Notes under the pieces: generated by a model | Database searches by the model: none | The model's input: only the letters and a program-made list of their open reading frames with translations | Told to the model about the DNA's origin: nothing | Made by a program: the position numbers and the translations under genes | Source: Chloroflexaceae bacterium | GTDB taxonomy: Bacteria; Chloroflexota; Chloroflexia; Chloroflexales; Chloroflexaceae | DNA: 64,000 nt | Assembly (NCBI GenBank): GCA_025057155.1 | Contig: JANWYD010000007.1 | Span: 186,001-250,000 of the forward strand | Direction: 5' to 3' | Shown: positions 3,692 to 39,173 of the stretch, piece after piece | How the letters are laid out: every line of letters starts with the position of its first letter | Position numbering within the stretch: the stretch's first letter is position 1

Positions 3692-4016
3692 TGGTCTGTG
3701 AACAGGTTTTTTTCTCAACCCGCCCCCTCCTCAACCCTCCCCCGCCGGGGGAGGACGTCTGGCACCTCCCCCCAACGGGTGGAGGCTGGGTTCTCAGGTG
3801 TAGGGTTTTTCGAGCGAGCAGGGGTTTTCGGCATTCCAATGCGCTTGCGATTCCTCACCCCCCCGCCCTCCTCTCTCGCTCGCGGGAGAGGGGAGAGTCG
3901 GGCGTCCCAATGCCCCGGATGGCGCATGCGACGCGAGCCTGCGCTGGAAAACCCTACACCTGAGAATGCAGGCCGGGAGGAGGGCGGAAACGCCAGGAAA
4001 CTTACGTCACAGACTA
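3692..4016. repeat. Family B repeat, copy 1, interrupted by a family A element
   Basis: The ends are GGTCTGTGAAC on the left and ACGTCACAGACTA on the right, an imperfect inverted repeat. The interior has the family B palindromes CCCTCCCCCGCCGGGGG and CCTCCCCCCAACGGG. Compared with the intact copy at 32326-32468, the sequence breaks after GGAGGCTGGG (3790) and resumes near 3967. The intervening bases are a family A element. Confidence 0.75.
3791..3966 (-). mobile_element. Family A MITE-like element, copy 1 (nested)
   Basis: 176 bp bounded by TTCTCAGGTGTAGGGTTTT and its inverted copy ending ACCCTACACCTGAGAA. There is no coding capacity. The interior carries the shared blocks GGCATTCCAATGCGC and GATGGCGCATGCGACGCGAG in the opposite orientation to copies 2 and 3. 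It is inserted in a family B repeat; the flanks AGGCTGGG and AGGCCGGG look like a slightly diverged target duplication. Confidence 0.75.
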
Positions 4017-4066
4017 TTCACGACGCCTGGCGCGATGTGTGTGCATTGACTCACAGGAATGGGATC

Positions 4067-4894
4067 ATGAGCGATTTCGACTGGCTGCGGCAGCGCCTGG
4101 AGAGCGCCTTCGGGCAGTTGCTCTCCCAGGCCCCTGAACTGGCGCGGATCTGGGGGCAGTGGTTCGAGGCCCTGGAGGGTGAACCCGTGCCCCTGGCGCG
4201 CCTGGAGAAGCCGCTACGGGAAGTGCGGCTGGCCCTGGTGACGACGGGGGGCGTGCATCTGCGCGCGCAAACGCCGTTTGACATGCGCGACTCGCGCGGC
4301 GATCCCACTTACCGGGCCATTCCCGCCGATACGCCTGTGAACGAGCTGGCGATCACCCACGACTACTACGACCACACCGACGCCGAGCGCGATCTGAACA
4401 TCCTCTTTCCGCTGGAACTCGCGCGCGAACTGGCGGCCCGCGGCGCCATCGGCGGTCTGGGAACCTGTTACGGCTTCATGGGGCACATCGAGCCGCCCCA
4501 CGTCGAGACGCTGATCCGCCAGACCGCGCCCGAGGTGGCGGGCATGCTGCGGCAGGAGAAGATTGATGCGGTGCTGCTAACCCCTGCCTGAGGGCTGTGC
4601 AATCAGTCCGTGGGACTGATCGCCAGGGTCATCGAGAGTTTTGGCATCCCAACCGTGTGCATTATCGCTCTGCGCGAGATCGCCGAGCGGGTGCGCCCGC
4701 CGCGCGCCATTCATCTGAAGTGGCCCTTTGGTCATCCCCTGGGAGAGCCGGGTAACCGGGCGCAGCAACTCTGCGTGCTGTACATTGCGCTCCAGGCTCT
4801 CTATACCGTGCGCGAGTCGGGGACGATCTATGATCCAGGCTGGCGTTGGCGCCGCGAGGAGTATGAAGAACCCGATCGCTGGGATCTGCCTTGA
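4067..4894 (+). CDS. GrdB/PrdB-like reductase family protein, candidate selenoprotein (UGA = Sec175)
   Basis: One frame runs from ATG 4067 through an in-frame TGA at 4589-4591 to a stop at 4894, giving 275 residues if the TGA is read as selenocysteine. The product belongs to the glycine/sarcosine/betaine reductase selenoprotein B-like family. The sequence around the TGA reads LLTPA-U-GLCNQSVG, so Sec would be the first residue of a UxxC redox pair with Cys178; homologues usually have CxxC here. The 100 residues after the TGA stay in frame and family-like (IPTVCIIALREIAERV, WPFGHPLGEPGN). A hairpin of bacterial SECIS type starts 10 bases after the TGA, and a tRNA-Sec gene lies at 30412-30505. 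The reaction is unknown; a thiol/selenol reductase role is inferred. The alternative is a nonsense mutation. Confidence 0.85.
4589..4591 (+). other. In-frame UGA, predicted selenocysteine codon
   Basis: TGA lies between GCC (Ala) and GGG (Gly), at the position where the family has the first Cys of CxxC. The frame continues open for 101 codons. Confidence 0.8.
4602..4620 (+). promoter_or_regulatory. bSECIS-like stem-loop
   Basis: ATCAGTCC-GTG-GGACTGAT forms a perfect 8-bp stem with a 3-base loop that begins with G. The loop starts at base +19 after the UGA, the same distance as the GGU loop of the E. coli fdhF SECIS and within the accepted 16-37 range for bacterial SECIS elements. Confidence 0.75.
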
Positions 4895-5065: not shown

Positions 5066-5335
5066 TCACCCGGACCGGTCACGCCGCTTGCCGCGTCCGG
5101 AGAGGCGAGTGGCGTCCGGGGCGAAGGTGATCGTGAAGGGACGCTCGATGGCCCCCTCAGGGCAGTAGCTCTCGCACACCTCGCAGAAGGTGCAATCTTC
5201 TGGCCGCGTGATCACGGGCAGACCCCCCAGGATCGTCACGGCACGCGTCGGGCAGAGCTCGACGCACAGGCCGCAGCCGGTGCACAGCCGAACGTTGATC
5301 AGCGGAAGGACGTACTGGTACTGGTGGGATGCCAT
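5066..5335 (-). CDS. Ferredoxin, 2x[4Fe-4S]
   Basis: 89 residues with two complete cluster motifs, CTGCGLCVELCP and CTFCEVCESYCP, each of CxxCxxCxxxCP type, so a bacterial two-cluster ferredoxin acting as a soluble electron carrier. The first motif is followed by TRAVTILGGLPVI, as in ferredoxins with a short linker. The start at 5335 is chosen because AGGAGGG lies just upstream; the longer open frame reads non-conserved sequence. It converges on the selenoprotein gene and is divergent from the Crp/Fnr gene at 5698. It could be the electron donor of the neighbouring redox protein, but that is only a positional inference. Confidence 0.9.
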   Translation of the reverse strand: MASHQYQYVLPLINVRLCTGCGLCVELCPTRAVTILGGLPVITRPEDCTFCEVCESYCPEGAIERPFTITFAPDATRLSGRGKRRDRSG

Positions 5336-5697
5336 GCTCCCTCCTGCCTGCCATCCGCAGCGGGCAGTTGCCGAGCGGTGCGGCCGGTATCCGCGTGCCG
5401 GCAGGCGCCAGTGTAGCACCGACGGGCGTCCCTGGAAGCGACAATTCTCACAGGGATGGTGTGGGACCTGGCGTGTATGCCACGGGGTCGCTCCCTTAAG
5501 TGTGATGAAGGTATAATGCGTGAGGAGTGGGCCGGTTGCCTTCGGCGCCGAGGGAAGCGCCGAGCGCCGGCAGCATTTCTCAAAACGATTGATCCGCAAC
5601 GATGGCGGCGCAAGCGTCGCGAGCCGCACGGCTCAGGGTTCTAAACGGATCGATCATTCCGGTCAGTACTCTGTGGTTGAGCGATGAGGGGCGGCCA
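5336..5697. promoter_or_regulatory. Divergent promoter region, ferredoxin / Crp-Fnr
   Basis: Gene-free 362-bp region. On the plus strand GTATAAT at 5511-5517 is a good -10 box, which would give a leader of about 170 bases before the Crp/Fnr start. This leader contains a nested hairpin around 5532-5575 (TCGGCGC / GCGCCGA inside GCCGG / CCGGC). No clear Fnr box (TTGAT-N4-ATCAA) is visible. Confidence 0.45.
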
Positions 5698-30411: not shown

Positions 30412-30505
30412 CGAGAGCGCGTGGGAGTCGAACCCACCGGCGAGGCTCGTCACCCCGCCCACAGGTTTTGAAGACCAGGGCGGCCACCGGGCCACGTCCG
30501 CTCTC
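30412..30505 (-). tRNA. selC: tRNA-Sec (anticodon UCA)
   Basis: 94 bases without CCA. It has the selenocysteine tRNA hallmarks: anticodon loop CTTCAAA with TCA; a 6-bp D-stem with 4-base loop (GTGGCC-CGGT-GGCCGC); a long variable arm with 7-bp stem (GGCGGGG / CCTCGCC); T-arm GTGGG-TTCGACT-CCCAC; and an extended acceptor stem of eight bases per side (GAGAGCGG / GCGCTCTC). Two pairs are non-canonical: G-G at acceptor position 8 and T-T in the anticodon stem. CCA is not encoded. This tRNA supports the UGA reading at 4589. The other sel genes are outside the window. Confidence 0.88.
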
Positions 30506-38788: not shown

Positions 38789-38864
38789 TGGTGGAGCGAA
38801 GGGGATTCGAACCCCTGACCTCCTGCTTGCAAAGCAGGCGCTCTCCCAACTAAGCTACCGCCCC
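38789..38864 (-). tRNA. tRNA-Ala (anticodon UGC)
   Basis: A full cloverleaf is readable on the minus strand. The anticodon loop is CTTTGCAAG with TGC; the T-arm has GGTTCGAATCC; the acceptor stem carries the G3-U70 pair that identifies alanine. CCA is encoded at the 3' end (38789-38791). Confidence 0.95.
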
Positions 38865-39096
38865 GAGTCTCAGACTAGTCTTGGCGCCAGGCAACCCCAA
38901 TAGTTCCTCCACGGTTTTACAACCAGTTTGTGGAGGTGTAGAGGTGTGGAGATGCGAAGGTGAGGGCCAGACCATCAAGCTCTTCTGCGACGTGCCTGAG
39001 GTCATTCACGATCAATGGTTAGCCGGCGCCCTGATCAGCGAAAAGGCAAAAGGTAAAAGTGTGCGTCACCTTTCACCCTTTGCCTTTGCCAGACCC
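38865..39096. other. Spacer between tRNA-Ile and tRNA-Ala with TGGAGGTG repeat
   Basis: 232 bp without a gene. It holds a TGGAGGTG tandem tract at about 38932-38955. The inverted sequence AAAAGGCAAAAGGTAAAAGTG / CACCTTTCACCCTTTGCC-type lies around 39040-39090 and may form a hairpin. A promoter for tRNA-Ala could be here. Confidence 0.4.

Positions 39097-39173
<77 letters not shown>

Follow-up and report, generated by a model that had tools for sequence, protein, structure and literature searches.

A stand-alone PrdB-like gene of a Chloroflexaceae bacterium with a predicted Sec-x-x-Cys redox motif

In D-proline reductase the PrdA subunit binds proline via its pyruvoyl group, the selenocysteine (Sec, U) of PrdB attacks, and a PrdB cysteine acts as the resolving residue, with PrdC having been proposed to re-reduce PrdB (PMC3091704). 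PrdB selenoproteins with a UxxC motif have been known since 2005 from ocean metagenomes and were described again in 2008 (PMC1088965, PMC2398784), with the Sargasso/GOS data yielding 42 Sec genes in one study (PMC1088965), and 235 Sec and 110 Cys genes in the other (PMC2398784). A 2006 account mentions a "proline reductase" selenoprotein family in genomes that include Anaeromyxobacter and Geobacter, and also reports three selenoproteins of Chloroflexi (PMC1794560). The PrdB family has since been counted among the bacterial selenoproteins of widest distribution (PMC9312934).

We analyzed a stretch of 64,000 nucleotides (hereafter the window) from a Chloroflexaceae bacterium, in which a gene interrupted by an in-frame UGA had been put forward as a candidate selenoprotein. 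The gene is a further case of the described, widespread UxxC PrdB selenoproteins. The Sargasso/GOS proteins share with it the family name, the UxxC motif and the existence of both Sec and Cys forms, and probably represent the same kind of stand-alone gene; unlike it they are metagenome fragments, and the likeness is judged from their published description. What is new here is a clade of relatives with a Sec-x-x-Sec (UxxU) motif, along with thioredoxin-fold genes that recur next to relatives and are in some cases UGA-encoded too.

The reading frame, its UGA codon and the downstream hairpin

Read-through translation of a single frame gives a protein of 275 aa, constituted by 174 codons, the UGA, 100 further sense codons and a terminal UGA stop (Table 1), in line with the original prediction of a frame running on past the first UGA. 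The motif around this codon reads T-P-A-U175-G-L-C178-N-Q-S-V-G, and the residues across the predicted Sec175 are TPA-U-GLCNQSVGLIAR. Mechanical ORF calling splits the gene into two frames (3698-4591 and 4610-4894), which is the misannotation that had been anticipated from an annotation pipeline.

Table 1. Positions of the gene, its functional elements and the tRNA-Sec gene within the window
Feature	Position	Strand	Evidence
PrdB-like selenoprotein gene, Sec at residue 175	4067..4894	+	read-through translation; PF07355 above gathering score; TIGR04483 E 5e-47; full-length homologues
In-frame UGA, predicted to encode Sec175 at the start of UxxC	4589..4591	+	UGA in 27/27 codon-aligned homologues; Cys in Ktedonobacteria-type homologues
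Cys178 codon (resolving Cys at the second redox position of UxxC)	4598..4600	+	no variation within A1 and A2; a second UGA in the UxxU clade
SECIS-like hairpin, 8-bp stem 4602-4609 / 4613-4620, loop GUG 4610-4612	4602..4620	+	synonymous suppression; covariation
tRNA-Sec gene, anticodon UCA, needed for UGA decoding	30412..30505	-	ARAGORN; Rfam RF01852 70.1 bits

A class-wide search recovered a match in 56 of 158 genomes. Among the named carriers of the gene are Chloroflexus, Candidatus Chloroploca, Oscillochloris, Kouleothrix, Candidatus Viridilinea and Herpetosiphon, as well as a Nitrospirota MAG. Each of the best 30 homologues contains exactly one in-frame TGA, always in the context TP[AG]-U-G-[LI]-C-N, and a codon alignment places it at the same position in all 27 homologues included. 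Downstream of the UGA the dN/dS ratio ranges from 0.00 to 0.20 across 11 pairs, and in 10 of these it is lower after the UGA than before it. This purifying selection past the UGA argues against both a truncated product of 174 codons and a pseudogene. The TAA or TAG "stops" seen inside some homologues are located upstream of the real start. A reassigned genetic code, under which UGA would be an ordinary sense codon, is not supported, as UGA also terminates the window gene and many of its homologues. The UGA is a functional, conserved recoding site.

Beyond the UGA, the strands AUCAGUCC and GGACUGAU form the stem of a hairpin whose GUG loop, beginning with G, is reached 18 nt past the UGA, and the predicted 8-bp hairpin is accordingly present with the proper spacing. 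An Rfam search detected no family at this hairpin. The region folded alone is not exceptional in its stability (z = -1.49), so that the case rests on comparison. Among the 27 codon-aligned homologues, the normalised synonymous codon entropy of codons +4 to +11 is 0.28 vs 0.77 elsewhere, the lowest-entropy windows of the gene lie over the hairpin, and several of its codons are near-fixed (CAG 26/26, TCC 27/27, CTG 27/27, GGA 25/27). In a set of 33 diverse sequences the stem pairs in 93.2% of the cells and includes 12 two-sided changes, such as CAGACC-GUG-GGUCUG; the covariation score is 0.187 as against 0.090 +/- 0.012 for shuffled versions (0/500) and 0.102 for the best slid version. Shared ancestry is only partly corrected for by the covariation controls, which makes the synonymous test the stronger evidence. 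More distant subfamilies also have a hairpin in roughly this location, though its sequence differs. Together these comparisons indicate that the hairpin is under selection and lies in the bacterial SECIS register.

The host genome codes for SelA (467 bits), SelB (324 bits) and SelD (371 bits), the last of which itself contains an in-frame UGA (...DCAGUASK...), and the tRNA-Sec gene lies in the window. By hand count, SelA is present in 37 of the 39 tested genomes with Sec-form genes, the remaining two being 84-86% complete, and absent in 9 of 23 genomes that lack the gene. The FdhA relatives show no in-frame UGA. The third candidate for a selenoprotein is of the Prx-like UxxC type (SDRFFUPNCAPQL; G000:C7:278732-279148, locus L151) and is encoded 28 kb beyond the end of the window; such a protein with an in-frame UGA also occurs at L153. 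The window additionally holds adjacent tRNA-Ala (TGC) and tRNA-Ile (GAT) genes (38789-39173), with no rRNA matches in it at Rfam gathering scores.

It might be argued that the UGA is simply a stop, marking a pseudogene, a sequencing error or the boundary of two separate genes, given that translation table 11 reads it as such and ORF callers split the gene there. This is contradicted by its presence in 30/30 of the best homologues, by the strong selection on the downstream segment, by relatives with Cys at the UGA site (see below) and by the full Sec machinery of the host, which make such a reading extremely improbable. The two observations that the original prediction had named as counting against it are likewise contradicted: an assembly error is excluded because the UGA is kept in at least five genera, and the UGA of relatives lies at the same aligned position with a hairpin under selection, rather than at a non-conserved position without one. 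We infer that Sec is incorporated at this codon, and consider it nearly certain that the gene encodes a selenoprotein.

Cysteine forms, predicted structure and a clade with two UGA codons

Homologues of family f30, from large genomes (6-14 Mb) that appear to belong to Ktedonobacteria, and of families f23 and f49 carry LTAG-C-PLCHR, in which the first Cys aligns precisely with the UGA, beside LTAG-U-PLCHR in the sister genes L141 and L145. The UGA hence stands in place of the first Cys of a CxxC motif with Cys178 retained, as had been proposed; and these Cys homologues, together with the selected hairpin, the conserved UGA and the Sec machinery, support the view of a selenoprotein form of a reductase-like family in Chloroflexota. 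In a tree of 62 rows, CxxC is found in 14, some of them sister to UxxC rows, and the Cys and Sec forms are interleaved within one well-supported clade, which suggests that exchange between Cys and Sec has probably occurred more than once. The motif further varies to U-x-x-x-C at L092 and L144, and one PrdB-like homologue (L089 of genome G088) has lost both redox residues (TPGGPLSHQ).

An AF2 model based on 23 sequences (mean pLDDT 90, pTM 0.90) has a strand (168-172) leading into the motif and a helix (178-191) starting at Cys178. This confident model places the predicted Sec175 and Cys178 between the end of a β-strand and the start of a helix, as in redox CxxC motifs. Sequence and profile searches of solved structures returned nothing meaningful, and a fold search of the PDB no chain at E <= 0.001, so structure gives no guide to the catalytic mechanism.

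Seven genomes, all from the class-wide search of 158 genomes, have a version with two UGAs three codons apart in the motif PA-U-P-I-U-H-Q-S-V-A-L (AA-U in one). These UxxU genes (L077, L079, L080, L081, L083, L085 and L088) form one clade with support of 100/100, and UGA also terminates four of the seven, which indicates that the code has not been reassigned in them. Their predicted hairpin (CGCGCU-CGUGC-AGCGCG), with a stem identical among the seven, lies further downstream, which puts its loop G at a distance of 21 nt from the second UGA, a spacing shared with the one-UGA family. A search for the exact UxxU DNA pattern in 400 genomes of the phylum, among which this class is thinly covered, recovered it only in G094. 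In reviews of 2022 and 2026, UxxU appears under Prx-like and other families, and PrdB has just the single-Sec UxxC form (PMC9312934, PMC13188914). The Prx-like selenoproteins are comparable in combining UxxC and UxxU within one family; however, they are peroxiredoxin-like, whereas the clade described here is PrdB-like.

Family affinities, gene neighborhoods and possible function

The best NCBIfam match of the protein is PrdB (TIGR04483; 160.3 bits, E 5e-47), as against ~48-52 bits for the GrdB profiles of that database, and it also passes the Pfam GRDB profile (PF07355; 28.8 bits vs a gathering score of 22), with an alignment confined to positions 212-345 of the 347-position profile. Its counterparts are PrdB and the C-terminal half of GrdB. 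The "GrdB-like" label of the original prediction therefore holds for the family, but the protein itself is nearer PrdB. With GrdB of glycine/betaine/sarcosine reductase (PF07355, TIGR01917/01918) it shares the homologous C-terminal half and UxxC; unlike a full-length GrdB of ~430 aa, it lacks the N-terminal half. PrdB it resembles in size (275 vs 242 aa, PMC3091704), in aligning over most of its length, in having UxxC with Sec first and in the known selenoprotein form of that family.

These similarities would fit a true PrdB subunit that cleaves D-proline together with PrdA. Against this, the TIGR04483 score is far under the equivalog cut-off of 300 bits, and PrdA has no match in the genome itself or in 12 related carriers (13 gene-carrying genomes). 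Five other Chloroflexota did yield remote PrdA-like segments in the same search, and these, standing in for a positive control with full-length PrdA, make the absence good, though not perfect, negative evidence. Moreover, no neighbors of the prd operon are found at the window gene, which is instead surrounded by genes for TetR and an MFS protein upstream and a ferredoxin downstream, along with Crp, and the neighbors differ between genera. Given that the pyruvoyl subunit was not found, the protein is best described as PrdB-like but not D-proline reductase, an activity that very likely is absent from these bacteria; participation in that enzyme is a very unlikely explanation.

The neighborhood of the window copy includes no adjacent thioredoxin-fold gene, and its conservation ends at the genus, so that the window context offers no pointer to function. 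The ferredoxin gene (5066-5629, minus strand) is convergent with the PrdB-like gene, and 2-oxoacid:ferredoxin oxidoreductase genes are found downstream in a congener (L052:6884-9446) and in the Nitrospirota MAG (L073:7454-9991). Among relatives, four Herpetosiphon loci (L069, L070, L071 and L072) have a thioredoxin gene ~100 bp upstream; that of Herpetosiphon aurantiacus (L070:5503-5898) is on the same strand as the PrdB-like gene. In the UPLCHR/CPLCHR subfamily, 12 loci have a peroxiredoxin gene either next to the PrdB-like gene or no more than 3 kb from it. A peroxiredoxin with UGA at the position of the peroxidatic Cys (TPVU) is directly upstream in L092 and L144, where two selenoprotein genes thus stand side by side. 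A TlpA-like redoxin with an in-frame UGA (SW-U-[RG]-C-R) is encoded 1-2.5 kb away in L077, L083, L085, L086 and L088, four of which are UxxU genes, with L086 having one UGA. These pairings are observations on individual loci, and the suggested link to thioredoxin stems from the neighborhoods of relatives and not from the window.

In light of these contextual connections, we propose that the window gene encodes a stand-alone PrdB-like selenoprotein acting as a thioredoxin-linked selenol oxidoreductase or peroxidase, a role that, taken as a whole, we regard as somewhat probable. Ribosomes would read the UGA as Sec with the aid of the hairpin, SelB and tRNA-Sec. By analogy with PrdB and GrdB, Sec175 would then attack an electrophile, most likely a peroxide or disulfide, and Cys178 would resolve the resulting adduct, after which a thioredoxin-type protein could re-reduce the Sec175/Cys178 pair. 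Peroxidase activity has been reported for GrdB of Eubacterium acidaminophilum (ref. B55 as cited in PMC3091704). The main alternative is a selenoprotein mainly attacking a small organic substrate reductively, through C-N or C-S cleavage of the GrdB/PrdB type with an unrecognized partner. GrdB and PrdB alike have a carbon substrate (PMC3091704, PMC13188914), and in one Chloroflexus genome (L154:166-3509) the gene is preceded by ATP-grasp, Peripla_BP_2-domain and DUF547 genes, with the DUF547 gene just 10 bp away. The missing pyruvoyl subunit and the several subfamilies that adjoin Trx, Prx or TlpA-like genes speak against such a reading, which we consider possible but rather doubtful.

Extending the proposed thioredoxin-linked role to the whole group, it is conceivable, at a likelihood a little short of even, that the stand-alone PrdB-like proteins of Chloroflexota are a distinct class of selenoenzymes, other than proline reductases, whose UxxC or UxxU motifs are coupled to thioredoxin-fold partners. 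As part of this conjecture, a single hairpin, shifted by 9 nt such that its loop G is at the usual distance from the second UGA, would serve both UGAs of the UxxU genes and yield a diselenide-capable site near a UGA-encoded TlpA-like protein.

Implications for the family

A gene that appears to be broken by a stop is, almost certainly, a working one with UGA read as Sec in its redox site, and database names would suggest for it a D-proline reductase activity that these bacteria very likely lack. What the family does apart from Stickland fermentation is not settled by the literature cited here. As cultured Chloroflexus and Herpetosiphon carry the gene, both Sec incorporation and function are directly testable. 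The UxxU clade, in turn, raises the questions of how decoding proceeds at two UGAs spaced by three codons and of what might be gained by a possible diselenide over a Sec-x-x-Cys pair.
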